From positions 1 to 36,603 of IMG/VR virus record IMGVR_UViG_3300034279_000884: a DNA stretch of 36,603 nt; one strand, given 5' to 3'. The first letter of the stretch is position 1. Every line of letters starts with the position of its first letter. The stretch comes from a virus. A model generated the notes under the pieces. That model was not told where the DNA came from, searched no databases, and saw only the letters and a program-made list of their open reading frames with translations. Below are positions 19,807 to 35,409 of the stretch, piece by piece. The position numbers and the translations under genes were made by a program.

Positions 19807-20835
19807 ATGCCATTTATATCTACTATTAGATCAGTATACGGCCCAATTGGAAGAATGGGCCGTATTATTGGTGCTAAAGATGCTATTACTGGTGGCACAA
19901 TTAGTAGTGCTGGTGGATACAGAATTCATACTTTTACTGATGTAGGAACATCTCAATTTAACATGAGCATGGTTGCCTCTGCATTAAATATCGAATATTT
20001 AATTATTGCTGGAGGAGGCTCTGGAGGATATGAATCATCTACTTACTGGGGCGGAGGAGGCGCTGGAGGATACAGAACTGGAACAATATCATCTAGTCCA
20101 TCCAATTATTCAGTAGTTGTAGGTGCAGGAGGATATAACTATTCATCAACTAACTGGTCTAATGGACTAAATTCTTCATTTAATGGAGTAGTATCTGTAG
20201 GCGGCGGATCTTCTGGAGGTCCAGCACCATCTGGACAGGGTGGCCCAACTGGTCCAGAGGTTCTTCCACAAACTGGGGGATCTGGCTCAGGCGGGTATTT
20301 TGCAAAAACACCAGGATCTGGTACTAGTGGACAAGGATCGTCTGGTGGTACATCTACTTCTTCATCAACGAACGGCGGCGGAGGAGGAGGAGCAGGAGGT
20401 GTTGGAGCAAACGGTGTAGATCAGGCTGCTGGAGTTTTAACTAATGGATATGGCGGCATAGGCGGAGCAGGAATGTCTAGTAGTATAAATGGATCTTCTA
20501 TAACTAGGGCTTCTGGCGGAGGCGGCGGAGGAGTAAGAAACAATAGAGATGCTGCATACCCAGGTACTATTCAGTCATCCACTCCAGGAGGAGGAGGAAG
20601 GGGATTTAGTAGTAATGCTAATATTTGGCCTCCTGGTTCATATGGTGGAATTGAATATAGGGCTCTTAAAGGTACTCCAAATACTGGCGGAGGCGGCGGA
20701 GGTGGTCTATGGGATGGGTATGATTACTATACTATAAATACATCAAATTCTAATTTTGTCCCTGGCCCAACATCTACTCTAACTGGCAATGAAGGCGGAT
20801 CGGGAATTATTATATTAAGATATACTTTCCCCTAG
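19807..20835 (+). CDS. Glycine-rich tail adhesin, third and divergent copy (342 aa)
   Basis: AGGAG precedes ATG 19807 and overlaps the previous stop region. The N-terminal 60 residues (MPFISTIRSVYGPIGRMG ... YRIHTFTDVG) differ from the two other adhesins. The body then begins NIEYLIIAGGGSGGYES and continues with Gly runs to GGSGIIILRYTFP. The YLIIAGGG...GIIILRYTFP frame is the common form of Gly-rich phage adhesins. It is not part of the recent tandem duplication but has the same proposed role as a receptor-binding tip. Likely cotranscribed with the 999-residue fibre. Confidence 0.75.
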   Translation: MPFISTIRSVYGPIGRMGRIIGAKDAITGGTISSAGGYRIHTFTDVGTSQFNMSMVASALNIEYLIIAGGGSGGYESSTYWGGGGAGGYRTGTISSSPSNYSVVVGAGGYNYSSTNWSNGLNSSFNGVVSVGGGSSGGPAPSGQGGPTGPEVLPQTGGSGSGGYFAKTPGSGTSGQGSSGGTSTSSSTNGGGGGGAGGVGANGVDQAAGVLTNGYGGIGGAGMSSSINGSSITRASGGGGGGVRNNRDAAYPGTIQSSTPGGGGRGFSSNANIWPPGSYGGIEYRALKGTPNTGGGGGGGLWDGYDYYTINTSNSNFVPGPTSTLTGNEGGSGIIILRYTFP

Positions 20836-20842
20836 GAATAAA

Positions 20843-21244
20843 ATGCCATTTTTTAAAACTACAAAAAATATATTCCATCCATGGGAGGATGAATTATTCT
20901 CAGAAAATTGGATGGATGCGAATAAAGTTTATACCCCACCCACCAAAGTTTGGGACTATAAAAGAGAATTAAAGATAGAAGATGTAGATATTTGGGAAGT
21001 TTTATATGAGCAGGGTGGGGGTATTGGTGTATATGCATCATGGAGTCCATATTCAGAATTTTATTTAATTAGAACTGGATGGGAAGAAGAATGGGCAGGG
21101 AGAGGTCTAGAAACATATTATGGAGAGAATGCTCAAAGTAAAGTAATGAAAAGATGTAAGGAATTAAAAATACCACTACAAATTAATAAATTATGGATAG
21201 AACCAGACGACATGTGGCTATATTCTAATATAGAGGTAAATTAA
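20843..21244 (+). CDS. Hypothetical protein (133 aa)
   Basis: Follows the third adhesin by seven bases with TAGGA as ribosome site. Begins MPFFKTTKNIFHPWED and contains VWDYKRELKIEDVDIWEVLY, GGGIGVYASWSPYSEFYLIR, and a C-terminus rich in Trp (WIEPDDMWLY). Compact globular composition with no membrane span. It is positioned like a fibre chaperone or accessory tail protein, but nothing proves that. It converges with the glycosyltransferase gene on the other strand, overlapping it tail to tail by 20 bases. Confidence 0.6.
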   Translation: MPFFKTTKNIFHPWEDELFSENWMDANKVYTPPTKVWDYKRELKIEDVDIWEVLYEQGGGIGVYASWSPYSEFYLIRTGWEEEWAGRGLETYYGENAQSKVMKRCKELKIPLQINKLWIEPDDMWLYSNIEVN

Positions 21245-21971
21245 CAGATCCCCAATCGTTCGGCGTCCAGAATCCAAACTCTTGAATAGAATGATCATTG
21301 TATTTATAATTTCTACCTATTGATTGTGGATTAATTGGTAAAGGCTCTCTTAAAAACATTTCATGAGAAACCCTAGTACTGCTATCAACATAAATATCAT
21401 ATCCAAGTTTTCTTAATAAAGAACAGACATAGAAATCTTCTGACTCATAGATATTTGCACTATTTACACCAACTCTAAAAACATCATATGTTCTATTACC
21501 ATGATCATCAATATAGAATAAATTATTTTTTTCACAATACTCTGCTATGTCTAAACAAGCCTTTCTAGAGATAGAAAAAAGGCCAAATCCAGCAAAATCT
21601 GTTTTATATAAAAAGTTTCCACAATCCTCATAAACTCCAACTACGGCACATCTTACTCCGTATGCAGAAACTGGATACTTTAGTGGTGTTGATAGGGCTA
21701 TTGCATCGTGACCTAGTTCTATAATTTTTTCTATTCCTAATCTATCAGCAGCAACATCATCGTCCTGCCAAACCATATAGTCAAAGTCTGGTACATTATT
21801 TAAAATATCTGAAAATATAGCATTACGAGCGCGGGAGACTAAACTATCTCCTGGGTATATTTTATGCATAATTCTAAATTTAGAAGAAGATAAATAATCA
21901 ATAATTGATTGCATATATTGAACAGTAACTGTATTCTTATATGAAGGTGTTGCAATTACTATATTTTTCAT
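21225..21971 (-). CDS. GT-A glycosyltransferase (248 aa)
   Basis: Begins MKNIVIATPSYKNTVTVQYM, an inverting GT2-like N-terminal strand and donor loop. GDSLVSRARNAIFSD (41-55) and the DxD-type metal site in MVWQDDDVAADR (D70-D72) mark the nucleotide-sugar site. The C-terminal part SEDFYVCSLLRKLGYDIYVD resembles acceptor-side motifs. It is cytoplasmic, without a membrane segment. It couples by ATGA to the upstream glycosyltransferase, and both lie against the direction of the surrounding tail genes. The likely acceptor is a virion or wall component, but this is unproven. Confidence 0.8.
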   Translation of the reverse strand: MKNIVIATPSYKNTVTVQYMQSIIDYLSSSKFRIMHKIYPGDSLVSRARNAIFSDILNNVPDFDYMVWQDDDVAADRLGIEKIIELGHDAIALSTPLKYPVSAYGVRCAVVGVYEDCGNFLYKTDFAGFGLFSISRKACLDIAEYCEKNNLFYIDDHGNRTYDVFRVGVNSANIYESEDFYVCSLLRKLGYDIYVDSSTRVSHEMFLREPLPINPQSIGRNYKYNDHSIQEFGFWTPNDWGSVNLPLY

Positions 21972-22594
21972 AACTCTCCTCTAACTCTATTTAATAATTC
22001 TATATTATTTTTACTTGGAATTCTAGTTTGAGGATGATATAAATGATAATTATTACCCTTTAGAAATGTAATAGGGCGGTATTTTTTTTCAAATCTTAAA
22101 TTAAATTCTGTATCCTCAAGCCCCCACCCATCAAAACTTTCGCTCATGCCGCCTAGATCTTCCCATGTATCCTTTTTAATGATATAGATGCCACCAGAAT
22201 TTCTAATATTTAACTGATATGGCAATAGATAGGTCTTGTCATAATCGTTTATTGTTAATGGATTGATTCCATTAATAAAATTTATGGTTGCCTTTTCATT
22301 CAAATAATGGATTGAGGTAAAGGGCTTTATGATCATTCCTTCATTCAATGAATTTAAGCCTTTGATAATTAAACTTAAATTAACAATGTTATCTGAATCA
22401 ATAATAACTAAGTTAGATTTTATAGACTTAGACACACCATTGTTTCTAGCCTGAGATCTATTAAATTTTTTTCTGTCAGACCGTCCGATTATTGGAATAG
22501 ACAATGATGAATAGTATTTATAGCAATACTTAAAGTTTCTTAATTGATATGGACAACCACTATCCTGCCATGGAATTATTATATCGAAGTCCAT
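21968..22594 (-). CDS. GT-A glycosyltransferase, galactosyltransferase-like C-terminal motif (208 aa)
   Basis: Begins MDFDIIIPWQDSGCPYQLRN. VIIDSDN (64-69) is the DxD metal site. The segment SGGIYIIKKDTWEDLGGM and FDGWGLEDTEFNLR (154-167) is the G-G...F.GWG.ED..F pattern of the galactosyl/GalNAc-transferase C-terminal domain (Glyco_transf_7C type). It transfers a sugar from a nucleotide donor in the cytoplasm. The ATG (22594-22592) lies six bases from the palindromic divergent -10 at 22601-22610, so it is probably leaderless. It forms a two-gene minus-strand cassette with the gene at 21225. Confidence 0.8.
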   Translation of the reverse strand: MDFDIIIPWQDSGCPYQLRNFKYCYKYYSSLSIPIIGRSDRKKFNRSQARNNGVSKSIKSNLVIIDSDNIVNLSLIIKGLNSLNEGMIIKPFTSIHYLNEKATINFINGINPLTINDYDKTYLLPYQLNIRNSGGIYIIKKDTWEDLGGMSESFDGWGLEDTEFNLRFEKKYRPITFLKGNNYHLYHPQTRIPSKNNIELLNRVRGEL

Positions 22595-22897: not shown

Positions 22898-22909
22898 TAT
22901 AATTATAAC
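22898..22909 (+). promoter_or_regulatory. -10 element for leaderless 338-residue fibre gene
   Basis: Consensus TATAAT (22898-22903) plus six bases then ATG 22910, no Shine-Dalgarno sequence. The layout and the preceding GG are the same as at 16788, and the two genes have related N-termini. Confidence 0.65.
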
Positions 22910-23926
22910 ATGGCTAAACCTATAAAAGTATGGACTGGATCTGAGTGGGTAGATGTAGCAATAAAAACTCCCACAATTACAGGATATGCCACAGAAACAG
23001 CATTGGGAGTATTATCAGATACTGTTGATGGCAAGGCTGATCTATCAGGAGACACATTTACAGGATTTGTCACATTACATGCAGATCCAACACAATCTTT
23101 ACATGCTGCCACTAAGCAATATGTTGATGCAACAGCAGAAGGTCTTCATATTCATGCATCCTGTGCTACTGCTACAACAACTAATATTTCTAATCTTTCA
23201 TCTCCTCCCGCCTCTATTGACAATGTGACGCTTACCACAAACATGAGGGTTCTTGTTAAAAATCAATCTACCGCATCTCAAAATGGTATTTATGTATTTA
23301 ATGGAACAGCATTGGTTAGAGCAGAGGACTTTAATTCTGCTACAGAAATCGACGGCGGAGACTTTGTTTTCGTAACTGGAGGAACTGTTAATGATAATAC
23401 AGGATGGGTACAGGTAGAAACTGTAAGTACTGTAGGCTCTGATCCAATAACATTTACCCAGTTCTCTGGTGCTGGATCAATAACTGCTGGTACAAATATT
23501 TCTATTTCTGGAACACAAGTATCTACAGTAAATGATCCAACATTCTCAGGTCTAGTTACAGCAAGTTCTGGAGTAGCATTTTCTGACGGTACTCAGACTA
23601 AAGTAGGAGTTCCATCTATATCATCATTTATTTCTAAAACTTCTAGTTACACCCTTGACGCACTTACCTTAAGAGATAATATTATTGAAATGGATAGTAC
23701 ATCTGCAACCACAGTAACAATACCAACAGATACTACATTAAACTATCCAATAGGCTCAAGCATAGATGTTATTCAAATTAATACTGGAGAAGTAACAATC
23801 GCGGGAGCAGTAGGAGTTACAGTAAATTCTACCCCTGGACTTAAACTAAGAACCAGATGGTCATCATGTACTCTATTAAAAAGAGCATCTAATACCTGGC
23901 TTGTCTATGGCGATCTTAAAGCCTAG
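22910..23926 (+). CDS. Tail fibre protein (338 aa)
   Basis: Begins MAKPIKVWTGSEWVDVAIKT, related to the 999-residue fibre. A repeat ADPTQSLHAATKQYVD (about 65-80) is typical of fibre shafts. The middle domain (about 85-190) has ATTTNISNLSSPPASIDNVT and LVKNQSTASQNGIYVFNG ... DNTGWVQVE, common in phage fibres. The C-terminal 100 residues (SYTLDALTLRDNIIEMDS ... TWLVYGDLKA) match the end of the 613-residue fibre. It is probably an alternative or accessory adsorption fibre. Leaderless promoter directly before it. Confidence 0.75.
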   Translation: MAKPIKVWTGSEWVDVAIKTPTITGYATETALGVLSDTVDGKADLSGDTFTGFVTLHADPTQSLHAATKQYVDATAEGLHIHASCATATTTNISNLSSPPASIDNVTLTTNMRVLVKNQSTASQNGIYVFNGTALVRAEDFNSATEIDGGDFVFVTGGTVNDNTGWVQVETVSTVGSDPITFTQFSGAGSITAGTNISISGTQVSTVNDPTFSGLVTASSGVAFSDGTQTKVGVPSISSFISKTSSYTLDALTLRDNIIEMDSTSATTVTIPTDTTLNYPIGSSIDVIQINTGEVTIAGAVGVTVNSTPGLKLRTRWSSCTLLKRASNTWLVYGDLKA

Positions 23927-23928
23927 TA

Positions 23929-23937
23929 TGATATACT
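23929..23937 (+). promoter_or_regulatory. Extended -10 promoter for the FN3/PFFP gene and the oxygenase cluster
   Basis: TGA-TATACT (hexamer 23932-23937) lies just past the previous stop. The start codon GTG 23962 is 25 bases away with AGGAG in between. No internal promoter of this type is evident before 30037, so this may drive the whole cluster to 30048. Confidence 0.5.
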
Positions 23938-23961
23938 GATTGTTGATATTTAGGAGACATT

Positions 23962-25221
23962 GTGGCAAAAAAGGAAATCGGAGGAAGGTCTTCACAACAG
24001 AATGACTTCCTTGAACCAGCCGCACCTATTAATGTTGTTGCTACAGATGTAGGAACAAATAGAGCATTTAATAATGGTGCCGCTAGCGTGTCTTTTGAGT
24101 TGCCTGCTAATTCTCCTCCAGCAACTTCCTACACAGTTTACTTAAATGGCAATACTTCAATAAATGCTACTGGAACATCATCTCCAATAGTTGTTAGTGG
24201 ATTAACAACCCCAAATACAACAAACGCTGCACAGTTTTATGTTATAGCAACAAATGCTGCTGGGAATTCACCACAATCATCATTATCTACAGCAATACAC
24301 ACTACTGGTGTTCCAGCAACAATGTCTGCACCTACAGTATCTTCAAGTACTACTGATCAAGACGCCGTATCCTGGACTGCACCAAATACTGGCGGTAAAA
24401 CAATAATTAGATATTACTGGGAAAGTTCCGATGGTAAGTCTGGTAATACAACAAATACCTCAGTTACTGTAACTCAAGAAGGCGGAACTTCTCAAACATA
24501 TAAGGTAAGAGCAGAAAATGCAAATGGACTAGGAATCTGGTCAGCAGATTCCTCAAGTGTTACTACAACTCCATTCTTTCCCCCATTCTTTCCTTATTTC
24601 CCACCATTTTTCCCACCGTTCTTTCCCCCATTCTTCCCATATTTTCCTCCGTTCTTCCCATACTTTCCTCCGTTTTTCCCGTTCTTCCCACCATTCTTTC
24701 CGTTCTTCCCACCATTCTTCCCAGCGTTTGGTCCTGCATTTAAAACTGCTCCAACAAATATCATAGATCAAACTACTAATATCATTTACCTAACATCAGA
24801 GTATGGATACTTAACAGATAAGTATTTGGCAAATGAAGATGCTTTATCTGCACTAGGATTCGATGAATTAAATGGACTAGATAGTGCAATTGAACTAGAT
24901 TCAGAATCTATAACAAATATAATAGAACTAGAGACTAATATTAAAAATATTGAAAGTCGCCTGGATCAAATTGACATTATTAAGATTAATGATGAATCAT
25001 ACATAAAGCATCATAACCTTCTAGTTGAAAAAGACGGCAGGATCTTCTTTGAGAATGTATTAAATATAGATAGTTCATTTAAGTTATTTAACTTTGACAA
25101 TAAAGAATTTATTCAAATAGAGTCTTTAGAAAAAGTAGAAAATGTAGAAACTGAGGTATACTTCATTGAATGTGATATGCCAATAGTAATACAAAGTAGC
25201 GTTGGATTTATGACAAGATAG
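23962..25221 (+). CDS. FN3-domain virion protein with proline/phenylalanine repeat (419 aa)
   Basis: GTG start with AGGAG five bases upstream. Two fibronectin-III-like domains span about 22-112 and 116-202 (PATSYTVYLNG, SWTAPNTGGKTIIRYYW). Residues about 204-258 are an almost pure Pro/Phe/Tyr repeat of PFFP and PFFPYFP units, encoded by a near-pure pyrimidine tract. Then comes an acidic coiled-coil-like stretch (about 285-335) and a C-terminal beta domain (HNLLVEKDGRIFFENVLN ... VGFMTR) loosely like a Hint or fibre end domain. It probably is a tail surface protein. Five prolyl-hydroxylase-like genes follow at once, making the Pro repeat a candidate substrate. Confidence 0.75.
   Translation: MAKKEIGGRSSQQNDFLEPAAPINVVATDVGTNRAFNNGAASVSFELPANSPPATSYTVYLNGNTSINATGTSSPIVVSGLTTPNTTNAAQFYVIATNAAGNSPQSSLSTAIHTTGVPATMSAPTVSSSTTDQDAVSWTAPNTGGKTIIRYYWESSDGKSGNTTNTSVTVTQEGGTSQTYKVRAENANGLGIWSADSSSVTTTPFFPPFFPYFPPFFPPFFPPFFPYFPPFFPYFPPFFPFFPPFFPFFPPFFPAFGPAFKTAPTNIIDQTTNIIYLTSEYGYLTDKYLANEDALSALGFDELNGLDSAIELDSESITNIIELETNIKNIESRLDQIDIIKINDESYIKHHNLLVEKDGRIFFENVLNIDSSFKLFNFDNKEFIQIESLEKVENVETEVYFIECDMPIVIQSSVGFMTR
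24571..24740 (+). repeat. PFFP/PFFPYFP coding repeat and polypyrimidine tract
   Basis: About 170 bases that are nearly all C and T on this strand, with short repeated words such as CCATTCTTTCC and CCACCATTC. They encode 4- and 7-residue units PFFP, PFFPYFP and PFFPFFP. Codons vary (CCA, CCC, CCG, CCT; TTC, TTT), so the protein repeat is conserved beyond simple DNA slippage. Confidence 0.8.
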
Positions 25222-25234
25222 ATTGAGAGATATT

Positions 25235-25963
25235 GTGTCTGATTGGCTTAATAAAGATAGATCAGAAACACATTTAAATAGAATTAATCCTAGAGCATGG
25301 AAAGATAATCTAATAGTAGAAAATCCGGCTCTAGGAATTAATATTTATAAAAGTGTTTTAGATAAAGGTTTATGCGATGAAGTAATTAATGTATTGGAAG
25401 ATAACATTGGTAATGAAAAATATCAATGGTCCCAGGCACACGTTACAGAATCTGATAACCCACTATTGAATGCTAGAGATTGTTTAGATTTTAAAATAGG
25501 ACATAATAATCTAGGTCCAAGAAATTCTAACAATAAAGAATTATATGATATGCATCAGAAGGTTTTCGATTCACTTTACCCTGCATCACAAGATTATGCA
25601 AGGTACTGGGGCGTAGGTATATCATATTTCGAAGTGTTCAACTTTGTTAAATATGAGGGTGTTAATAAACATTTTAATATTCATGCAGATCATGGTCCAG
25701 CATATGTATCTACAGTATCTATGGTTTTATATGTTAATGATAATTATGAGGGCGGAGAAATTTACTTCCCTAGATTTGACTTAGAGGTAAAGCCTGAGGC
25801 GGGGGATCTTGTGATATTCCCATCAACATACATTTACGAACATGCTTCAAAACCTATAGTTTCTGGTACTAAATATGCTATAGTGATAATGACAGACTAT
25901 AACAGTCGTGGAAATCTTAGATACTATCAGTATCGTGAAGAAGATAATAAAGTTAAATATTAG
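25235..25963 (+). CDS. 2OG-Fe(II) oxygenase 1, prolyl 4-hydroxylase type
   Basis: Cupin-fold dioxygenase that would hydroxylate a residue using O2 and 2-oxoglutarate. Iron ligands H150, D152 (NIHADHG) and H203 (YEHASKP) are present. K213, ten residues after the distal His, matches the 2-oxoglutarate-binding Lys of collagen-type prolyl 4-hydroxylases. YVNDNYEGGEIYFPRF (166-181) and KPEAGDLVIFPS are family hallmarks. GTG 25235 (242 residues) has GAGAG before it; TTG 25223 is the alternative. First of five such enzymes, and directly downstream of the PFFP-repeat protein. The hydroxylated target is inferred, not shown. Confidence 0.85.
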   Translation: MSDWLNKDRSETHLNRINPRAWKDNLIVENPALGINIYKSVLDKGLCDEVINVLEDNIGNEKYQWSQAHVTESDNPLLNARDCLDFKIGHNNLGPRNSNNKELYDMHQKVFDSLYPASQDYARYWGVGISYFEVFNFVKYEGVNKHFNIHADHGPAYVSTVSMVLYVNDNYEGGEIYFPRFDLEVKPEAGDLVIFPSTYIYEHASKPIVSGTKYAIVIMTDYNSRGNLRYYQYREEDNKVKY

Positions 25964-25975
25964 ATTGGTTTTTTT

Positions 25976-26680
25976 ATGATTTCTGAAGAGCAGAAAACAA
26001 TAAATCAAAAAATTGAAGAGTTTTATAAGATAGATAATCAAACATGGTCATCATATGACGACCTTGGGAGTGGCATATTTGTTTATCATGACGCTATGCC
26101 GCTTGACTGTATCTCTAGACTAGAGAATGTTTTAGAAAATGATAGGAATCAGTATTCTTATTCTGAAGCAATGGTCGGATATTCTATGAAAATACCAGAA
26201 TACAGAGACTGTCAGGATTTTAGATTTAAAAAGTCTGATATAGAAGGAGACAGGAGTTCTGCTAGCCTTGAGTTACAGGATGTTTGGCAAAGCATCTATG
26301 ATAGTGCATCTCAGGCAGTTAAGCACTATGCATCCCATTTTAAAATTGGAGAACTTAGGTACTGGGAGGCTATGAACTTTGTCAGGTATGGTCCAGGACA
26401 ACATTTTCAGGAACACCACGATCATGGATATTCATACAATTGTGTAGTCTCATTGGTGGGGTATCCTAATGATGATTACGAAGGTGGAGAATTATATTTT
26501 AGATTACAAAATCTTAATATAAAGCCTAAGGCTGGAGACTTGTTTATCTTTCCATCAAACTATATGTATCCTCATAGAGCCATGCCAGTAGTTTCTGGAA
26601 TAAAGTACTCAGTAGTTACAATGCTTGATTACTCCGATAAGTTTCATAGACCAGAATTTTATTACGAAACGGGAACCTGA
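25976..26680 (+). CDS. 2OG-Fe(II) oxygenase 2, prolyl 4-hydroxylase type (234 aa)
   Basis: Iron triad H147, D149 (QEHHDHG) and H200 (YPHRAMP), with K210 ten residues later, as in oxygenase 1 and in collagen prolyl hydroxylases. YPNDDYEGGELYFRLQN and KPKAGDLFIFPSNYMYPH are the usual beta-strand hallmarks. N-terminal half has a QKIEEFYKID helix and an EYRDCQDFRF substrate-side segment shared with oxygenase 1 (NARDCLDFKI). The two are close paralogues by motif order. It starts 13 bases after the previous stop without a clear ribosome site, and its stop overlaps the next start. Confidence 0.85.
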   Translation: MISEEQKTINQKIEEFYKIDNQTWSSYDDLGSGIFVYHDAMPLDCISRLENVLENDRNQYSYSEAMVGYSMKIPEYRDCQDFRFKKSDIEGDRSSASLELQDVWQSIYDSASQAVKHYASHFKIGELRYWEAMNFVRYGPGQHFQEHHDHGYSYNCVVSLVGYPNDDYEGGELYFRLQNLNIKPKAGDLFIFPSNYMYPHRAMPVVSGIKYSVVTMLDYSDKFHRPEFYYETGT

Positions 26681-27390
26681 TGCCCCTTGTTGCATATAAA
26701 GATATGCATACTCCATCAATCATAGAGCAAATGCCTATGCATAGAGACTGGATGGACGAGACATTTGATCGACATGCATATCAATGTTTTCCAGTATCAA
26801 TGGCAAACAGACTTGGATGGTCTATATCTTTTAAAGAAGATATAACATTTATTTGGGATGGTATCAATTCTTCACAAGATGGTCATGTTAATATAATAAC
26901 TGGCGGAGATTATGTTAGCACTAGAAGAGCAAATAGAACTCTTAGTTTCGACACAGGAATTATATTCTCTCCAGAGGAGAACGTAAGCCTACTCACAATG
27001 CCTCCGCCAAATATATTTATAGATGGCATTCAATGCATGACAACAATTATTAGCACGACAGCATTGATAGGAGCATTGCCAGTAGCAATAATGATAACTA
27101 GGCCAAATATTGAAATAACTATTCCAGCAAAAACTCCTATAGCATCAGTATTTCCAATATCACTAACAGATATAAATAATACTGAATTAATTGTAAAGAG
27201 TGGATATCCAGATTTTATGCAACAAGCCGAATGGAATAAAAAAATTCAAGATCGCGGCGCTGCCTCTCAGGAAAAAAATTCTAAAGGAGAGTGGACTCAT
27301 TTTTACAGAGATGCTGTAGACCATAATGGAAACAAAATGGGTGATCATGAAGTTAAGAAAATTCTTATGAGAGTGACTTATGAAAATTAA
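26680..27390 (+). CDS. DUF6065-like conserved protein (236 aa)
   Basis: TGATG overlap with oxygenase 2. Contains MPMHRDWMDETFDRHAYQCF and SMANRLGWSISF near residues 19-50, a PPPNIFIDGIQCMTT stretch, and the C-terminal HFYRDAVDHNGNKMGDHEVK. The RDWMDxTxxRxAYxC ... ANxxGW pattern resembles, from memory, the DUF6065 family often found near 2OG oxygenases; the assignment is tentative. It lacks an HxD triad, so it is probably not an oxygenase itself. Position inside the cluster suggests a partner, for example a substrate-binding or structural component. Confidence 0.55.
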   Translation: MPLVAYKDMHTPSIIEQMPMHRDWMDETFDRHAYQCFPVSMANRLGWSISFKEDITFIWDGINSSQDGHVNIITGGDYVSTRRANRTLSFDTGIIFSPEENVSLLTMPPPNIFIDGIQCMTTIISTTALIGALPVAIMITRPNIEITIPAKTPIASVFPISLTDINNTELIVKSGYPDFMQQAEWNKKIQDRGAASQEKNSKGEWTHFYRDAVDHNGNKMGDHEVKKILMRVTYEN

Positions 27391-28099
27391 GTTTTTATCT
27401 AATAGGCCATGGTCTAGTGAAAATAAAAATAGTTTCCCAGAGCCATCTTCTAAAAATATTCCAGACTGGTATGTTAAAGAAGATAGATACGCAAAACAGC
27501 CAAATGGGGAGTATTACACAGGACCAGATGGAGGAAAGATAGTTACATGGAAGGGATGCCCTGCCATATATGACATATTAATAACTGGATATATGCTAAA
27601 GACTCCATGTGATATAGAATTTATAAACACTCCAACTGGACAAATTCATAGAATTTATGACATTAGATACCAAGATTTTATTCAGCCAAGGCTGGAAATG
27701 TCTGGATTCGATGAACCAGACGGGTACTCCAAGAGCCACTTTGCTTGGTATCCAGATTGGGCACCAGAAGTCCCTAGTGGGTATAGTGTTCTTTATTCAC
27801 AGCCGTTCAATAGATTCGACTTGCCCTTCTTAAATACAACTGGTATTGTTGATAATGATGAAGTTAGTGTTCCAGGAACAGTACCTTTCTTCATTAAAGA
27901 AGGATGGGAAGGGGTGGTTCCTGCAGGAACCCCATATATTCAACTTCTTCCATTCAAAAGAGATGATTGGGAGTCTGAACACGAACTTTTAGATGAAAAG
28001 CAGATAGTAAGAAGAAACATTAAAAACAGCAAAAAATATAGAGTACCAAACGGTGGTGTATATTTAAATGAAGTATGGCATAGAAGGAAGTATCAGTAA
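27380..28099 (+). CDS. Conserved phage protein in the oxygenase cluster (239 aa)
   Basis: Overlaps the previous gene by 11 bases. Starts MKIKFLSNRPWSSENKNSFP. Motifs include KNIPDWYVKEDRY, WKGCPAIYDILITGYMLKTP, and SQPFNRFDLPFLNTTGIVDND ... VPAGTPYIQLLPFKRDDW (listed as separate pieces). I recognise the IPDWY ... CPAxxDxLxxGY ... FNRFDLPF ... GTPxxQLxPFKR order from proteins in cyanophage and freshwater phage genomes, often beside 2OG oxygenases; function unknown. It looks like a large beta-sandwich. Its place between oxygenases 2 and 3 suggests a shared pathway with the 236-residue protein. Confidence 0.6.
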   Translation: MKIKFLSNRPWSSENKNSFPEPSSKNIPDWYVKEDRYAKQPNGEYYTGPDGGKIVTWKGCPAIYDILITGYMLKTPCDIEFINTPTGQIHRIYDIRYQDFIQPRLEMSGFDEPDGYSKSHFAWYPDWAPEVPSGYSVLYSQPFNRFDLPFLNTTGIVDNDEVSVPGTVPFFIKEGWEGVVPAGTPYIQLLPFKRDDWESEHELLDEKQIVRRNIKNSKKYRVPNGGVYLNEVWHRRKYQ

Positions 28100-28755
28100 T
28101 GTTTGAAGGAAATCCAGTATCAATAACCCCATCAGGCTTCTTTGGCAATGGAAAAGAAAATATAGTTGAACTAGAAAACTTTATGACAAATGAAGAAGTA
28201 GAATTTCTTAATAATTTCATTAGATCTAACACTATATGGGACATAACAGAAACACATTATAATGATGAGGGTACTGTTATTTATGATGCAGATTACTGGA
28301 AAGATAGGGTAATTACTAAGCCAAATATAGAAAAGGCTAATCCTAAAGTATCAATTATTATTAACAACATGGTTGCTAGACTTAAGCCTATCGTAGATGA
28401 TTTTTTTAAGGTGGACGCAATGCCTACGAATCCTGCCATGGTTAAGTGGCTACCAGGACAACTTCAAATGCCTCATGCAGATAAGGAGTTGCACGTTGGA
28501 GAAGACGCAGGGAAGCCAAACGACTTCCCTTGGTATGACCTTGCCAGCCTATTTTATATAAATGATGACTATGAGGGTGGGGAATTGTATTTCCCACATC
28601 AAGATATTCAATTTAAACCAAAGGTAGGTGCTGCATACTTCTTCCCTGGAGATATGAATTATATTCACGGAGTTACTGAAGTTAAATCAGGTATTAGATA
28701 CACCGTCCCCTTCTTTTGGACAATTCTAGAGCATACTGGAGATTCTAGGCCATGA
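28099..28755 (+). CDS. 2OG-Fe(II) oxygenase 3 (218 aa)
   Basis: TAATG coupling to the previous gene. Iron ligands H126, D128 (MPHADKE) and H190 (YIHGV); R200 ten residues later is the 2-oxoglutarate anchor, Arg here where oxygenases 1 and 2 have Lys. YINDDYEGGELYFPHQD and KPKVGAAYFFPGDMNYIHG are hallmarks. The N-terminal 60 residues (ELENFMTNEEVEFLNNF) are the typical lid helix region. Same family as the neighbours but a distinct subtype. Substrate unknown. Confidence 0.85.
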   Translation: MFEGNPVSITPSGFFGNGKENIVELENFMTNEEVEFLNNFIRSNTIWDITETHYNDEGTVIYDADYWKDRVITKPNIEKANPKVSIIINNMVARLKPIVDDFFKVDAMPTNPAMVKWLPGQLQMPHADKELHVGEDAGKPNDFPWYDLASLFYINDDYEGGELYFPHQDIQFKPKVGAAYFFPGDMNYIHGVTEVKSGIRYTVPFFWTILEHTGDSRP

Positions 28756-29480
28756 TAATAGATTCAATAAACACAGAAGATTTTGTTATCTATAAAGATG
28801 ATGAAAATAAATTAGGTGAGTTGGGTATTACTCAAAACAGAATAATTGAGATACCAGATTTTGTTGATGAGAATACTGCAAAGAGTATGATCGAATACTT
28901 TGAATATAAGGCATCAATGTGGGGACCAATTGCATTTTATGGATCATCTGGGATGGGCCTTATGCATAATGATCCAGAACTTTCGAACTTTGGATTACCA
29001 GATGACTTCTTTTCAAAAATACAATCTAAGTTTCAGGAATCAGTAGAATTAATATTCGGTAGACCTGTAAAGGCTAATACATCACATGCACAAAAATGGG
29101 ATGTTGGAGGATTTGCCGCAGCACATTCAGACAACTCCGACTTTGAGGGCAAGCCTAATTCTTTTCAAATAAATAAATATGTTGGAATTTTATATTTGAA
29201 TGGAAATTATGGTGGGGGAGAACTTTATTTTCCAGAGCATGAGATTGAAATAAAGCCTAAGTCGTTATCATTTATTTCTTTCCCTGGCGGGGTAGAGAAT
29301 ATACATGGAGTTAGAGAAATAACAGAGGGAACTAGATATACAATGGTTTCATTCTGGGATTTTGCTGAATCTGAATATTCTGATGAGTTGAAGTCTGAAT
29401 GGGAGCAAGAATTGCTTAGGGTGCGAGCAGAGCAAGAAGCCCAAAGAGAAGAGTGGTCAAAGGGTAATAAGTATGCGTAG
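28752..29480 (+). CDS. 2OG-Fe(II) oxygenase 4 (242 aa)
   Basis: ATGA overlap with oxygenase 3. Triad H125, D127 (AAHSDNSD) and H185 (NIHGV), with R195 as the 2-oxoglutarate anchor. YLNGNYGGGELYFPEHE and KPKSLSFISFPGGVENIHG mark the family. A charged C-terminal helix (about 206-242, SEWEQELLRVRAEQEAQREEW in part) is an extra not seen in the other four. It may mediate contact with a partner. It overlaps the next gene by 8 bases. Confidence 0.85.
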   Translation: MIIDSINTEDFVIYKDDENKLGELGITQNRIIEIPDFVDENTAKSMIEYFEYKASMWGPIAFYGSSGMGLMHNDPELSNFGLPDDFFSKIQSKFQESVELIFGRPVKANTSHAQKWDVGGFAAAHSDNSDFEGKPNSFQINKYVGILYLNGNYGGGELYFPEHEIEIKPKSLSFISFPGGVENIHGVREITEGTRYTMVSFWDFAESEYSDELKSEWEQELLRVRAEQEAQREEWSKGNKYA

Positions 29481-30048
29481 TCTAATAAATAAGCCAGAAA
29501 TATATAATGACAGTATTTATTACTACAAGGGCATACTGCAAAGACCTGAATACATAGTTAAATTAATAGAACAAAATAATTCAAATTCAGATCTTATTAG
29601 TGACTGGGTTCCATGGCAATCCTCAGACGGAGACTACACATTTGGAAGAACAAAAAGAATAAATTTTGAACACTACCCAAATTCTTCCGATGAGTCTAAG
29701 TTCATATACGGATCTATTTTGTCCGCAATTAGATTGGCTGGTGTTTTCTATGCTAGAAATAAAAATATTAATTTAGGTAAACAGTCTCCAATTTCAATAT
29801 CTAAATATGACGAGGGAAAGTTTATGGGTCCTCATACTGATGAAAAAACTGGAGCGCATATATCTGGAGTTTTATATTTAAATGATAATTACTCTGGAGG
29901 AGAACTAGAATTTCCTAATCAAGAATTTTCAATAAAGCCTGAGGCTGGAAGCATGATTGTTTTTCCATCCATAGGTGAATACATTCATGATCCAAAGCCT
30001 GCCTACGGCGGGGAGAGATACATTTGCCCCGTATTCTGGTATAATTAA
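29473..30048 (+). CDS. 2OG-Fe(II) oxygenase 5 (191 aa)
   Basis: The shortest of the five. Triad H121, D123 (GPHTDEKTG) and H172 (YIHDPKP), with R182. YLNDNYSGGELEFPNQE and KPEAGSMIVFPSIGEYIHD match the P4H-like core. It has a shorter N-terminal region than oxygenases 1-4. Its last codons overlap a consensus -10 element (TGG-TATAAT at 30037-30045) that leads into the next unit, so it is probably the end of the cluster operon. Confidence 0.85.
   Translation: MRSLINKPEIYNDSIYYYKGILQRPEYIVKLIEQNNSNSDLISDWVPWQSSDGDYTFGRTKRINFEHYPNSSDESKFIYGSILSAIRLAGVFYARNKNINLGKQSPISISKYDEGKFMGPHTDEKTGAHISGVLYLNDNYSGGELEFPNQEFSIKPEAGSMIVFPSIGEYIHDPKPAYGGERYICPVFWYN
30037..30045 (+). promoter_or_regulatory. Extended -10 promoter before the 1098-residue gene
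   Basis: TGG-TATAAT (hexamer 30040-30045) lies across the last codons of oxygenase 5. The next large start is ATG 30106, giving a leader of about 54 bases that holds a 5-codon frame (ATG 30050) ending in TAA. Confidence 0.5.
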
Positions 30049-30105
30049 AATGTGCCAATTCCTATAAATAGGTTATGGTGAATGTAAATTTAAGTAGTTG
30101 ATAAT

Positions 30106-33100
30106 ATGGCATATTCAGATATAGTGTTGTCAGACCTTCCCTTAGGCTATTGGGGAGGTCCAAGCGTATCTAGAAAAAATTTACTTACCGCCAATCAATA
30201 TTCTATAGAGTCATCTACTTCTGGATGGACTGCTTTAGACAATACATCTATATCTAGGGTAACCTCTGATTCATGGATAGGCTCCGCAAGTTTGCAAATA
30301 GATCCATCCTCTACTTCTGAGGCAGGATTTAGAATTGCTAGTGGGTCTAGAATACCCCTATCATATGGTAGGACATATACTATGGTTGCGCGGGTTAAAA
30401 ATACTTCTGGTTCTAGAAAAGCACGAATAAGAATAGAATATTTTACTACTCAAAGTGGATCTACCCTATCCCAGTCAGTAACGCTAGGTCAGGTGTATGA
30501 TATATCAAGTACAGAATGGACTACAATATATCATACTGAAACCCTGCCTACTGGAACATCAACGAACTACTTTGCGTCATGGGGGATAGTTACAGATACA
30601 GGCTTGGCATCAGACCTAATATTATGCGACGGAATTCAGTTTTTTGAAGGACCGCTATATGCAATGTATGATCAACAATATCAAAATGATGCAACCTTAA
30701 GATATATTAATTATCAAAAAAGTAAGCCAATTATCTTTAATGGTTCAGAGTCAGTAAGACTTAGCGGGGACGCGGTATTAGAAATATCTAATCCATATAA
30801 ATTATTTATTAATGGATCAGAGAGCAAAAGTGCTTCAATAGATTTCTGGTTTACTTTAGAAAAGCCTCCGTCATATAGGCATCAGTTATTAAAAATAGGC
30901 GCATTCATAAGTTGCTACATAGAGAACGACAAACTATACATAGACTATCTTGGTAGCAGAAGTTTTGTTCAGATAAATAATTGGGACATGCAGCATTACG
31001 TTAATGTTGTTTATTCTCAAAAAACCATATTTTTATATGTAGATGAAAATTTATCGACGTTCCTGGACCTTGGATCTAATTTTCAATTTGATAGGGTTAT
31101 CGAAGAAATTACCCCAACAATAGTAGTTGGGCCAGCATCTAGATCAGTCAATCTTCTTACCAACTCCTCTTTCGAGGACTCAGAATTTGGTTGGCAGGCC
31201 ACGAATTCTTCTATTGAATACATTACCTCTGATTACTTTTCTGGATCTAAGTGTTTACAAATTACTAAGCAAGCAACATCTAATTCAGGAGTTCAATCAG
31301 TAGACTTTTACCCAGTAGTTCCTTATGAGTCATACTATCTTTCAGCGTATGTAAAAATACCTTCATCTAACGAGTCCTCCACTCTGAGGCTTGTGTGTGA
31401 GGAATATGATTCATACGAGTCTGAAAATTTGTTAAAATCAACTACTCAAAATATTGTTTTAAGCAATAATAATTGGCAAAGAGTTAGTTTAGAATTTACT
31501 CCAGACATATATACTTCAGTAGTTAGAGTTAAAATTATTCAGCCATCTTCTGGAACAAACGGGCAAAAATTCCTATGCGATGCGCTTCTGCTAGAAAAAT
31601 CAAATTCTTTATCAACATGGTCAGAAAATCTAAATGATTCAGATCCAATTTTTATTTCAGACATAGGATTTTATTCATACGATATTGGAGATGAGAAAAG
31701 ATTAGATAGATATTTTTATGGAATATCAGACAACCCAGACGAACTTGCTATAGAGTATGGGGCGGATAGATTTGATATTAATTATTCAAGTAGTCTTTCT
31801 GAATCAGAAATAAACATTCTTTCTTCTGAAAATATTTTAAATGCTACTCTAGATAATCTTGCTTATGATCAAACATCATTATTAATGTCTGCCCTATCTA
31901 CAGAGTCTGTAGTTATTGGAAATGATGGCGGAGAGGCAACACTAAATAAGAATGGAATAAAGTTTTCTGATTCTGCATTTCTACCACTATCTCAGATAGG
32001 TGGGTACTTTAATCCTATATCGTCTACTATAAGATTCCAGACGACCTTTGACGATAATAGTGGAGATGGAACCGCACTATTAATAGGCGGGGTGCTGAAC
32101 TGCTACGGCATTGCCTTACAAAAAAGATCTAATAAATTAAAAGTGATGCTTATAGAAGATGTGTCACAGACACCCACCGAACTACTTGAAACAGAAACGT
32201 TATCAAATGGACTTATTAATATTGCATTAAATCTAGAAAATCAAATTTTATCTGCAAAAATCGGGGAGGAAGAATTTTTATCAATAGATATACCTGTAAT
32301 TACTTCTAATGCAACACTATCTATTGGTAACATTCCAGAATCATCAGATGCATATCCAGATTATATTAGAAATTTTACAATAGATGGACTAACAGACTTT
32401 GCTGACATTAATTGGATTGAAACTGGTAGATACACTCTAAGGTTAAATAATTCATTAAATATATCTCAGAAATCTACATTTAATTATTCTACCGCCGCAC
32501 TTATCCCAGCAAATAACAGTATCGTTACCTTTAATACATCTGCTCAAAACAATATAAAGATAAACAACGTAAGCGTAAAAGATATAACATACATACCAGG
32601 GTTTAATTATTCTGATCCAGAGCCAATAAGCATAGAAGTTACGCTTATTAGCGAAAATTCTACTACAGATAGAAAGTCGGTAAACAACCTCTATATATCT
32701 TCATACAATTCAGAGAGCCTGGTTTCATCACTATCAAGGTTTAGTTTGGACAGCAATTCATCAGAAAATATGCCATATATCATGAATGTTATATCATCCA
32801 ATGTGCTTTCTCATGATGATAATTTAGGATTAAGATTTGATAAATTAATTTCATCTGGATGCAAGGTAGTCTCCAATCAATCAAATACATATGAAGCAAT
32901 AGAAATTGTTTTCAAGATCAACCTAGCACCTAATAATGGAGAAACGTATACAATATTCGACCTTGCGGGTAGTAGCGATATCAATCTTAAATATGATGAT
33001 TCAGGATTAATTAAAAATGGAACCTACGATCTATATATTGATGGACAATTAGTATCTAATTTATCCGACATTGATATATTTTCTAGAGAAATCTATCACG

Positions 33101-33402
33101 CAATTGCTGTATTTTCTTCTTCTCTTTCTTCAGACATACACATAGGATCTAATAAAAATGTAGAAGAAAAGTTCGATGGAACTATAGGTAAATTAAATAT
33201 CTATTCGGTCGCCCCAGCAGATATGACAACTTTTGTAGAAGATAAATATTTAGATTTAATTGGGAAAAACGTTAAGAGTATAAATGGTGGAACGGCATCA
33301 ATAAATGATTCATCTGCCACCCAAGAGTACATAAGAGACTCCTTTGGAGAGTACTATGAAATGAAAAACTTGCCAAAGGTCAAAATAGTTTCTGAAATAT
33401 AA
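30106..33402 (+). CDS. Large tail surface protein with carbohydrate-binding-like and LamG-like domains (1098 aa)
   Basis: Starts MAYSDIVLSDLPLGYWGGPS. Two CBM4/9-like jelly-roll domains are suggested at about 23-185 (NLLTANQYSIESSTSGW ... ILCDGIQFFEG) and 347-505 (NLLTNSSFEDSEFGW ... FLCDALLLEK). They share the order NLL, GW, SGS/GSA, W.R/T, and a closing CDA/CDG. Several LamG/concanavalin-like segments lie between and after (about 205-340, 590-760, 885-1065), with repeated FDGTIGKLNIYS-type strands. This suggests sugar binding at the cell surface or attachment of a virion decoration. It has no catalytic motif. It directly precedes the head genes, an unusual position for a tail protein. Confidence 0.7.
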   Translation: MAYSDIVLSDLPLGYWGGPSVSRKNLLTANQYSIESSTSGWTALDNTSISRVTSDSWIGSASLQIDPSSTSEAGFRIASGSRIPLSYGRTYTMVARVKNTSGSRKARIRIEYFTTQSGSTLSQSVTLGQVYDISSTEWTTIYHTETLPTGTSTNYFASWGIVTDTGLASDLILCDGIQFFEGPLYAMYDQQYQNDATLRYINYQKSKPIIFNGSESVRLSGDAVLEISNPYKLFINGSESKSASIDFWFTLEKPPSYRHQLLKIGAFISCYIENDKLYIDYLGSRSFVQINNWDMQHYVNVVYSQKTIFLYVDENLSTFLDLGSNFQFDRVIEEITPTIVVGPASRSVNLLTNSSFEDSEFGWQATNSSIEYITSDYFSGSKCLQITKQATSNSGVQSVDFYPVVPYESYYLSAYVKIPSSNESSTLRLVCEEYDSYESENLLKSTTQNIVLSNNNWQRVSLEFTPDIYTSVVRVKIIQPSSGTNGQKFLCDALLLEKSNSLSTWSENLNDSDPIFISDIGFYSYDIGDEKRLDRYFYGISDNPDELAIEYGADRFDINYSSSLSESEINILSSENILNATLDNLAYDQTSLLMSALSTESVVIGNDGGEATLNKNGIKFSDSAFLPLSQIGGYFNPISSTIRFQTTFDDNSGDGTALLIGGVLNCYGIALQKRSNKLKVMLIEDVSQTPTELLETETLSNGLINIALNLENQILSAKIGEEEFLSIDIPVITSNATLSIGNIPESSDAYPDYIRNFTIDGLTDFADINWIETGRYTLRLNNSLNISQKSTFNYSTAALIPANNSIVTFNTSAQNNIKINNVSVKDITYIPGFNYSDPEPISIEVTLISENSTTDRKSVNNLYISSYNSESLVSSLSRFSLDSNSSENMPYIMNVISSNVLSHDDNLGLRFDKLISSGCKVVSNQSNTYEAIEIVFKINLAPNNGETYTIFDLAGSSDINLKYDDSGLIKNGTYDLYIDGQLVSNLSDIDIFSREIYHAIAVFSSSLSSDIHIGSNKNVEEKFDGTIGKLNIYSVAPADMTTFVEDKYLDLIGKNVKSINGGTASINDSSATQEYIRDSFGEYYEMKNLPKVKIVSEI

Positions 33403-33448
33403 AAAAATGAACCGATATGTGCCATATTTTCATATTTAGAAGGAAAAA

Positions 33449-33463
33449 TGGTACTATGTGTGT
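33449..33463 (+). promoter_or_regulatory. Extended -10 promoter, leaderless start before the head genes
   Basis: TGG-TACTAT (hexamer 33452-33457) followed by six bases and ATG 33464. A weak hairpin (ATATG-TGC-CATAT, about 33416-33428) precedes it and may end the upstream unit. Confidence 0.6.
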
Positions 33464-33793
33464 ATGCCAAAAGTAAAGATAGTTGAAGAAACTGACTACG
33501 GACTATACCTATGGGAAATGCCAGATGGAAGTATAGTCGCTGATGATGAAAAGAATTTTCTAAATATACCTGGAAAACGCGGTGACATGAGTAAGATTAA
33601 GATAATCACCGAAACTGTTAGATCCTTTGGTATTGAAGAGGGTAAGGCTGTATTCCTTTCTGGACACCGCAGAGTGACAGATGAAGAATATGAATATCAA
33701 AAGCAGCGCCTTGAGTGGGGATTAATCCCTGATGAACTAGATTATGGTGCCGCTAGAGATGAACTTATGAACTATAAAAAGGGACTTAGGTAA
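33464..33793 (+). CDS. Conserved actinophage small protein upstream of portal (109 aa)
   Basis: ATG 33464 is favoured by the -10 six bases upstream. Starts MPKVKIVEETDYGLYLWEMP, then GSIVADDEKNFLNIPGKRGD and EEGKAVFLSGHRRVTDEEYE, ending with a helical, basic tail. I remember closely similar proteins (YGLYxWExPDGxxVxDxxxNFLxIPSxxGDxxKI) directly before the portal in actinophages, with no assigned function. It is coupled to the portal by TAATG. A structural or packaging accessory role fits the position. Confidence 0.75.
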   Translation: MPKVKIVEETDYGLYLWEMPDGSIVADDEKNFLNIPGKRGDMSKIKIITETVRSFGIEEGKAVFLSGHRRVTDEEYEYQKQRLEWGLIPDELDYGAARDELMNYKKGLR

Positions 33794-35376
33794 TGCCAGC
33801 ATCATATGTAGAAGACGATGATCCACAAGAAATCAACATAACTTCTTCCTCTGACTTTTTTAAATTTTCCTCGTCAAAAAGCGAAGGCATGGACCCATTC
33901 TTGCTTCCTGCTGAAGAACTTAAGGCATATAGAGGACTTTCTCCTAATTTTAAGAGAAAGACAACGAGAACAATACAAAAATATCATCAGGGCGTTACTG
34001 GAGTAAGATCTAAGAAGATTGAAGATCCAGACGTTACTGGATACGTTATGTTTGAGGCTGTAGAGCCTCCATACAACATGGACTATCTCGCTAAAGTTTA
34101 TGAAGTTTCATCTCCCCACCATGCCGCAGTCGATGCCAAAGTTTCTAATATTGTAGGGCTTGGATACGACTTAATTGAAACTGATGAGACTAAAGACAAG
34201 ATTGAAGAAATAGATGATACAGATCAAGATAAATTAAATTTTCTTAGAAGAAAAATAACTCGCGCTAAAACTCGTCTAAAGAAAGATATAGATAATTTAA
34301 ATGAAGATGAGTCTTTTACAGAAACAATGAAAAAAATTCTTACTGATTATGATGCTACAGGAAATGGCTATATGGAAGTGGGTCGTAAGGTAGATGGAAC
34401 TGTAGGCTACCTTGGACATATTCCTTCAGCAAATATGAGGGTAAGAAGAAATCGTGATGGATTTATCCAGATTGTAAATAATAAAATTGTCTTTTTCCGT
34501 AATTATGGAGATACATCTACCCCAGATCCATTAGGAAACGATCCTCGCCCCAACGAGGTACTTCATTTTAAGAAGTATACTCCTACAAATAATTACTATG
34601 GAGTGCCGGATATTATTCCTGCCCTGCAAGCACTAGCAGGCGACGAATTTGCGTCTAAGTTCAACCTTGACTATTTTGAGAATAAGGCGGTCCCACGCTA
34701 CATTATTGTAGTTAAGGGTGCAAGACTTAGCGATGATTCACAAAGAAAACTTCTAGAGTTCTTCCAAACTGGACTTAAAGGTAAGAATCACAGATCACTT
34801 TATATTCCATTGCCAGCAGATGATGGAAACACTAAGGTAGAATTCAAAATGGAGCCAGTTGAGGCTGGTGTACAAGATTCTTCATTCAGAAACTACCGCC
34901 TTGAGAACCGTGATGAAATACTTATGGCGCACAGAGTTCCTGTGACTAAGGTGAGCATGGGTTCTGGCGTGTCTCTGGCGGCTGCAAGAGATGCAGATAA
35001 GAACTTCCGTGAACAGGTAACAAAACCCACCCAGGAATACTTTGAGAAGAAGATTAATAAAATTGTTCGTGAGTTTACAGACATGTTTTCCCTTAAATTC
35101 AATGAACTTAGTCTTACTGATGAGGATACTCAATCTAAGATTGATGAAAGATATTTGAGAATGCAAGTTATTGTTCCAAACGAAGTAAGAGCAAAGAAGG
35201 GACTCCCAGCCCTTGATGGTGGGGATACTCCAATAGTTCTTAATGCTCGCGCAGCAGCAGAACAAACTACCCAGGCTACTGGGAATAGAAGAAGAGATCA
35301 GGAGCGTCAACAAAATCAGCCCGATATTGATGGAGAGGCAAGAAATCCACAGGGCGAAGGCAGATCTGTGCAATAA
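33793..35376 (+). CDS. Portal protein, PBSX/HK97 type (527 aa)
   Basis: Forms the dodecameric ring at one capsid vertex through which DNA enters and leaves. Typical pieces are YLAKVYEVSSPHHAAVDAKV (about 94-113) and GLGYDLIETDET, LRPNEVLHFKKYTPTNNYYG-like text near 250 (here DPRPNEVLHFKKYTP), DEFASKFNLDYFENKAVPRY near 290, KGKNHRSLYIPLPADDG near 330, and ENRDEILMAHRVPVTKVSMG near 375. An acidic, Gln- and Arg-rich tail follows (about 490-527). Length and motif order fit actinophage portals. The protease gene follows. Confidence 0.9.
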   Translation: MPASYVEDDDPQEINITSSSDFFKFSSSKSEGMDPFLLPAEELKAYRGLSPNFKRKTTRTIQKYHQGVTGVRSKKIEDPDVTGYVMFEAVEPPYNMDYLAKVYEVSSPHHAAVDAKVSNIVGLGYDLIETDETKDKIEEIDDTDQDKLNFLRRKITRAKTRLKKDIDNLNEDESFTETMKKILTDYDATGNGYMEVGRKVDGTVGYLGHIPSANMRVRRNRDGFIQIVNNKIVFFRNYGDTSTPDPLGNDPRPNEVLHFKKYTPTNNYYGVPDIIPALQALAGDEFASKFNLDYFENKAVPRYIIVVKGARLSDDSQRKLLEFFQTGLKGKNHRSLYIPLPADDGNTKVEFKMEPVEAGVQDSSFRNYRLENRDEILMAHRVPVTKVSMGSGVSLAAARDADKNFREQVTKPTQEYFEKKINKIVREFTDMFSLKFNELSLTDEDTQSKIDERYLRMQVIVPNEVRAKKGLPALDGGDTPIVLNARAAAEQTTQATGNRRRDQERQQNQPDIDGEARNPQGEGRSVQ

Positions 35377-35409
35377 TTGTGCATAAAATTTTGTATTAAT
35401 CTGTCTAGT

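Follow-up and report, generated by a model that had tools for sequence, protein, structure and literature searches.

Many uncultured tailed viruses carry a row of genes for prolyl-hydroxylase-type 2-oxoglutarate oxygenases beside a gene for a protein with an aromatic-proline repeat, and this pairing is a conserved feature of them. We describe it from IMG/VR virus record IMGVR_UViG_3300034279_000884, positions 1 to 36,603 (the window, 36,603 bases in all and probably a fragment), in which the repeat gene is followed on the same strand by OX1, OX2, a DUF6065 protein, a phrog_7084 protein, OX3, OX4 and OX5, where OX denotes an oxygenase. Neighbouring genes of this block overlap or sit at most 13 bases apart, judged by the coordinates of their open reading frames. 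The best explanation as a whole, to which we give a probability of roughly two in three (0.66), is that the block is a virion-protein modification module, in which the oxygenase array acts on a fibre protein of the phage itself and hydroxylates its repeat.

The repeat as the hydroxylation target is strongly suggested by the gene context, which names a concrete substrate candidate for viral enzymes of so far unexplained use. This candidate is one definite repeat peptide, within reach of synthesis and of assays, and the question is thereby directly testable. If the explanation is true, a share of the uncultured-phage genes now filed as host-metabolism genes would belong to virion assembly instead.

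The oxygenase array recurs with the repeat

The pairing was approached by three handles, of which the first uses only the repeat. A degenerate DNA pattern for PFFPPFFP finds at least 120 stretches in viral contigs, 80 of them listed, and the record counts cover 50 of the 52 listed records of at least 15 kb, the shortest used being 16.7 kb (L050, a second piece of the contig of L032, was left out along with L084 and L085, and L086 to L125 were not included). A Gly-rich motif, handled by the same construction, served as control; here all 33 listed records of at least 15 kb were used (80 of at least 120 stretches listed, shortest record 16.6 kb). The oxygenase family PF13640 is present in 48 of the 50 repeat records, with 5 to 12 copies in 39 of the 50, versus 3 of the 33 control records, which have one copy each. 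DUF6065 is found in 40 of the 50 repeat records versus none of the 33 controls.

The second handle was seeded with OX3, and 55 of the 56 loci that extend at least 3.7 kb upstream of OX3 have the repeat. The order repeat gene, OX1, OX2, DUF6065, phrog_7084, OX3 recurs in most of the sufficiently long loci of this set, with local reorderings and some losses. The third handle was a distant DUF6065 protein, 24–28% identical to the window-type DUF6065 proteins. It leads to oxygenase-type frames in all 80 loci and to the repeat in 45 of the 49 with at least 4 kb upstream. Both of these queries came from loci with a repeat (the window, and L054, whose own contig is L678), so that only the first handle is free of that choice. 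Three of the 80 DUF6065-seeded loci had come earlier from the repeat patterns, L123 was found by both the repeat and the OX3 handles, and several loci from different handles are on the same contigs. Where a repeat locus has an oxygenase within 3 kb (64 loci), the enzyme lies downstream on the same strand in 55.

A preliminary description of the window had proposed the link between oxygenases and repeat and suggested a genome-context search as a check on it. By each of the three handles this check is strongly positive, and clusters that always occur without a proline-rich neighbour, the outcome it had named as fatal to the idea, were not seen.

The partner is an aromatic-proline repeat

Five motifs were compared in locus sets of 0.91–1.14 Mb each, with loci already drawn by an earlier pattern counted once (leaving 106 of 120 for PYFP, 119 for Pro-Thr and 118 for collagen-like tracts). 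Oxygenase-type frames occur in 88 of 120 PFFP and 86 of 106 PYFP loci, against 16 of 120 Gly-rich, 7 of 119 Pro-Thr and 2 of 118 collagen-like loci. Three or more such frames are found in 59 PFFP and 51 PYFP loci, one Gly-rich locus, and no Pro-Thr or collagen-like locus. An oxygenase stands within 3.5 kb in 22/26 PFFP and 20/22 PYFP loci with 3 kb on both sides, and in 2/25 Gly-rich, 1/32 Pro-Thr and 1/26 collagen-like loci. DUF6065 was detected in 67/120 PFFP and 43/106 PYFP loci versus 0/357 control loci, where matches to the phrog_7084 profile are likewise scarce (Pro-Thr 1/119, collagen-like 1/118, Gly-rich 0/120). Conversely, no aromatic-proline repeat occurs in any of 3,964 frames from the Gly-rich control loci.

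Because the oxygenase profiles of this comparison were trained on loci next to repeats and on OX3-seeded loci, the Pfam-based record counts carry more weight. Nevertheless, Pro-Thr, collagen-like and Gly-rich motifs come with little or no array, which indicates that its partner is the aromatic-proline repeat and not proline-rich or fibre proteins generally. Generic proline-rich, collagen-like and Gly-rich partners were rejected on these counts.

The repeat and its protein

Comparison of the window repeat with itself, shifted by 21 bases, gives an agreement of 0.89, 0.83 and 0.39 for codon positions 1, 2 and 3. Third positions are thus scrambled while the residues are kept, and so the repeat is maintained as protein and is not recently copied DNA. 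Among 146 non-redundant repeats of at least 30 residues, the median length is 69 and the maximum 152. The unit is mostly one or two prolines followed by x-F, where x is F, Y, H, R, S or another residue, and phenylalanine precedes 2257 of the 2583 proline runs.

In many loci a relative of the repeat protein is encoded immediately before the array, and the flanks of the repeats differ among these relatives: Fn3 or PASTA domains at the N-terminal side, Cys-rich tails or Hint-like domains at the C-terminal side. What stays constant from one of these proteins to the next is the repeat, which argues that the array needs the repeat itself. One relative (L018, 1894-2658, − strand) has its repeat behind a PASTA-like domain (E 9e-4, under the cut-off) in place of Fn3. 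From its position among tail-fibre-like genes and a weak Fn3 match, also under the Pfam cut-off, we infer that the window protein is a virion protein.

Several relatives have Hint-like domains that start with a cysteine just after the repeat and end in His-Asn (for example L019, L045 and L060), although their Pfam Hint or intein matches all fall below the cut-off, the best at 7.9e-5. Such Hint/intein-like domains stand directly behind the repeat at L019 7807-8481 (−), L045 3-785 (+), L060 6071-7393 (+) and L170 165-1448 (+). The window repeat protein has no Pfam Hint match, and its C-terminal part has neither the cysteine nucleophile nor the terminal His-Asn associated with Hint autoprocessing. 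A copy identical to it in sequence (L126) matches a profile of the Cys...His-Asn relatives at E 1.1e-5, and intermediates do so at E 9e-9 to 2e-14 (values from a search of 25 sequences with filters off). It therefore looks like a degenerate Hint-like member, and fibres that retain the cysteine and His-Asn may cleave or transfer their own C-terminus.

The oxygenases

All five window oxygenases match PF13640 above its curated cut-off of 27 bits (range 30.5–54), and the HxD...H iron triad and a distal Lys or Arg align in each. Five such enzymes with intact triads, packed together with two conserved companions, had been read from the sequence at the outset; these genes are real, and the companions are the DUF6065 and phrog_7084 proteins. 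The start of the block needs correction, from 25235 to a TTG codon four codons earlier, at 25223. Of 782 complete oxygenase frames from relatives (frames of at least 60 bits that do not touch a locus end), 763 contain a letter pattern for the metal and 2-oxoglutarate sites, and single loci hold up to 13 oxygenase-type frames. OX3 has at least 597 relatives, the best 80 of which, a selected set, comprise 3 identical sequences and 77 at 68–78% identity.

Sequence comparison with solved structures took in OX1, OX2, OX3 and OX5. Prolyl 4-hydroxylase 3itq is the top match of OX1 (E 1.6e-6) and OX2 (E 1.2e-4), prolyl 3-hydroxylase 1 that of OX3 (E 0.001), and the PKHD-type hydroxylase 3dkq that of OX5 (E 0.002). 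Procollagen lysyl hydroxylase LH3 and PiuC are also among the solved matches. Two AdeR chains found with OX2 at E 0.011 were taken as chance.

Two companions with a predicted beta-clip fold

The DUF6065 and phrog_7084 proteins are homologous to each other (hhalign 96.6%, E 5.9e-10), and DUF6065 proteins have in addition a conserved N-terminal block, RxWMDxT...HAYxC. AlphaFold models of a DUF6065 homologue (L054) and of the window phrog_7084 protein reach predicted local distance difference test scores of 83 and 89 and resemble dUTPases, with best Foldseek E values of 3.5e-4 and 4.8e-3. The best VIA Z scores are 9.4 and 10.0, a level of about 9–10 that may mean only a common arrangement, and dUTPases make up all 50 VIA matches listed for each model. 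A dUTPase-type beta-clip fold is predicted for both companions. A sequence-profile search with each companion, reaching to E 1, brought up no dUTPase chain. The companions have no credible sequence relatives in the PDB; one match at E 0.34, to a tbpip family protein, was taken as chance.

The predicted fold speaks for nucleotide or nucleic-acid chemistry as the role of the block, in which the oxygenases would oxidise bases or nucleotides and the dUTPase-like partners would handle a precursor. Genes for ThyX and ribonucleotide reductase in the window would also suit such a role, though they lie at least 16 kb from the module. Yet the fold comes with no dUTPase match by sequence, the top solved relatives of the four oxygenases compared are protein hydroxylases or PKHD-type hydroxylases, and the module sits among tail genes, behind the repeat gene. 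We consider this role highly improbable. dUTPases are trimers, and it is for this reason that trimeric adaptors are our guess for the companions.

DUF6065 also occurs in genome contigs, at eight loci. Two of these (L325 and L326) are phage-like contigs in metagenome-assembled genome (MAG) bins labelled Verrucomicrobiales and Gammaproteobacteria; both carry OX3, OX2 and DUF6065 in that order plus several more oxygenase-type frames, and the repeat is present in L325 as well. In the remaining six loci, all from proteobacterial MAGs, DUF6065 comes without array matches, so that the genome contigs offer no functional hint. Relatives of phrog_7084 are present in 49 haloarchaeal tailed virus records, for example HF2 (AF222060.2, 48263-48919).

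Possible decoration of the repeat

The preliminary description had further proposed that hydroxylated residues are then glycosylated. We take the transferase that adds N-acetylglucosamine (GlcNAc) to the hydroxyproline of Skp1, Gnt1, to belong to PF11397. This family is present in 3 of the 50 repeat records versus 1 of the 33 Gly-rich controls, and is absent from the 30 window proteins scanned. In each of the three repeat records, some 10 kb or more separate it from the listed PF13640 matches. A general hydroxyproline glycosylation step is not supported by these counts. Moreover, the interval between repeat gene and OX1 is shorter than 300 bases in 71 of 127 cases, which speaks against any general decoration step.

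The proposal may hold in a sub-lineage. PF11397-type genes from 8 of the 148 cluster loci fall into a single group, and all five members scanned are above the cut-off. In six loci (L148, L153, L162, L172, L184 and L194, the first two being near copies) the gene lies between repeat gene and OX1 on the same strand, sharing this interval with one or two other genes. In two further loci, L080 and L100, the same interval holds sulfotransferase-type genes, a group in which 2 of 7 members tested exceed the PF03567 cut-off. The interval may also hold small proteins of unknown function, glutathione-peroxidase-like proteins or other frames that fall into no class. Few loci contain relatives of the two glycosyltransferase-type genes that lie near the module in the window (21228-21971 and 21971-22594). 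Glycosylation would at most be lineage-specific.

The glutathione-peroxidase-like gene group is found inside the module beside the repeat gene in L040, L047, L082 and L086. Its sole member scanned, from L062, matches PF00255 at E 7.9e-6, just under the cut-off.

Weighing the proposed mechanism

In the mechanism that we propose, the repeat protein would be a fibre, or the tip of one, built on Fn3. Its (P/PP)-x-F units would be synthesised by translation and afterwards hydroxylated by the oxygenases encoded next to it, with the proline behind phenylalanine as the likeliest site. The several paralogues would divide the positions or repeat contexts among themselves, and the two beta-clip proteins would probably be adaptors or scaffolds, possibly trimeric, for the substrate or the enzymes. 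In some lineages the new hydroxyls could then take GlcNAc or sulfate.

A number of observations weigh against hydroxylation of the repeat. The loci are related, some lie on shared contigs, and the counts are not tree-aware. Two of the 50 repeat records have no PF13640 match and ten have no DUF6065, while 12 of 76 repeat loci with at least 3 kb downstream have no oxygenase within 3 kb. The repeat is not detectable in one of the 56 OX3-seeded loci (L203) or in four of the 49 DUF6065-seeded loci (L716, L717, L727 and L750). The resemblance of the window oxygenases to solved hydroxylases is weak (best E 1e-6 to 0.002), and the beta-clip companions look like nucleotide enzymes.

Further genes of tail-fibre-like type also adjoin the module. 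In many loci the repeat gene is preceded by frames related to the tail-fibre-like protein at 22910-23923, and a collagen-like tract is present in as many as 28 of the 148 cluster loci, though some of these tracts are in reverse frames and probably not genes. These neighbours would fit an array that modifies another virion protein of the region, be it the upstream tail fibre, a collagen-like or a Gly-rich protein, with the repeat gene as merely a constant neighbour. The motif comparison points the other way, given the rarity of oxygenase-type frames at collagen-like and Gly-rich loci and the lack of DUF6065 there, as does the near-constant presence of the repeat in OX3-seeded loci. On balance a different virion target appears unlikely, and we favour the repeat.

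A fuller picture can be drawn, which we offer tentatively and think somewhat doubtful in its entirety. Phages would then widely possess a system whose row of dedicated oxygenases writes position-specific hydroxylation of proline, perhaps also of aromatic residues, on an aromatic-proline fibre, with trimeric beta-clip adaptors and, in some lineages, GlcNAc or sulfate. It would be a phage counterpart of collagen and of plant hydroxyproline-rich glycoproteins, and would give a host-binding or adhesive fibre tip.

Gene neighbourhood

The module and its nearest neighbours are listed in Table 1. PHROG matches of the protein directly upstream of the repeat gene include head decoration, tail fibre, minor tail and virion structural proteins, and others of unknown function. 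Among sequenced phages, the only close DNA relatives of window positions 22900-35400 are in the portal region of two Streptomyces phages.

Table 1. Genes and features of the module and its surroundings (window positions)
Feature	Position	Strand	Basis
phrog_1574 protein, function unknown	21228-21971	−	glycosyltransferase-like only through a relative's Anp1 match below cut-off
Galactosyltransferase-type protein (PF02709, phrog_1721)	21971-22594	−	profile matches
Tail-fibre-like protein, directly upstream of the repeat gene	22910-23923	+	PHROG matches
Fn3 and aromatic-proline repeat protein, 419 residues, GTG start, candidate substrate	23962-25221	+	intact frame; fn3 E 0.0012
Pro/Phe/Tyr repeat, 53 residues, PFFPPFFPYFPP...	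24571-24729	+	inside the repeat protein
C-terminal part of the repeat protein, apparently a degenerate Hint-like domain	24757-25218	+	profile of relatives
Oxygenase OX1, PF13640	25223-25960	+	44.9 bits; HxD..H..K; TTG start
Oxygenase OX2, PF13640	25976-26677	+	54 bits; HxD..H..K
DUF6065 protein, PF19541	26680-27387	+	107.5 bits (curated cut-off 26.6)
phrog_7084 protein	27380-28096	+	E 2.4e-33, profile 5-218 of 240
Oxygenase OX3, PF13640	28099-28752	+	31.9 bits; HxD..H..R
Oxygenase OX4, PF13640	28752-29477	+	30.5 bits; HxD..H..R
Oxygenase OX5, PF13640	29473-30045	+	46 bits; HxD..H..R

Between the array and the p9394 and portal genes, window positions 30106-33402 encode a protein of 1098 residues with two carbohydrate-binding CBM_4_9 stretches. 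Three Gly-rich proteins of the tail region (14331-15302, 15719-16696 and 19807-20832) belong to one family (PF21722, phrog_2295), and a phrog_7759 protein separates the first two.

Comparison with known systems

Oxygenases of the same Pfam and PHROG family as the array (PF13640, phrog_61) are present in T4-like cyanophages, several copies per genome. Cyanophage PF13640-family enzymes are discussed as acting on host 2-oxoglutarate and nitrogen status or in DNA repair (PMC3037559, PMC9602691). Proposals of this kind favour auxiliary metabolic genes that act on this host status or on a host protein. On such a view, neither a constant position next to a single type of repeat protein nor the presence of many paralogues with DUF6065 in one locus would be expected. 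Furthermore, the four annotated oxygenase genes in a 30 kb stretch of cyanophage S-SCSM2R are scattered among replication and other genes, unlike the array. We judge such a host-directed role very unlikely here.

EGLN3-like phage proteins are described as widespread in phages of marine bacteria in the Phold paper (PMC12774648). A 2022 study reports P4HA as one of the viral genes of highest abundance in Baltic water and calls its use "cryptic" (PMC9301287), though this may not be the kind of enzyme studied here. A literature search of open-licence PMC papers found, among those listed, none that link phage oxygenases to an aromatic-proline repeat, and none on "DUF6065" or "FPPFFPP". Against 50,697 phage records, OX3 gave 12 matches, all below 60% identity and only one covering 80% of the query; DUF6065 gave none, and the repeat protein had no BLAST match, a negative that the low-complexity filter weakens for the repeat. 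With DUF6065 and the repeat protein unmatched and the OX3 matches remote, no isolate with the module was seen in these records.

The companions share their predicted fold with the dUTPase and dCTP deaminase beta-clip superfamily, and differ from dUTPases in the sequence searches, in the N-terminal block of DUF6065 and in genomic setting. For decoration, the nearest likeness is the Dictyostelium Skp1 pathway, in which PhyA hydroxylates a proline and Gnt1 then adds GlcNAc to the hydroxyproline (PMC3515798). The module of some relatives likewise contains a PF11397 transferase, although this transferase is absent from most relatives and from the scanned window proteins. Skp1 has one site and one hydroxylase, whereas the array has a long repeat and many enzymes.

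The prolyl 4-hydroxylase of Chlorella virus PBCV-1 is reported to use proline-rich repeats as substrates. PMC9301287, which refers to work on this enzyme by Eriksson in 1999, cites evidence for hydroxyproline in PBCV-1 proteins, and PBCV-1, with its virus-encoded prolyl hydroxylase, is the closest precedent. It is a virus of a eukaryotic alga, whereas the array belongs to tailed viruses of prokaryotes. Unlike PBCV-1, the array loci combine an aromatic-proline repeat with as many as 13 oxygenase-type frames and with DUF6065 partners. If its prolyl-hydroxylase-type enzymes do act on the proline repeat of the same virus, the aromatic-proline module of these phages would be a variation on that precedent.

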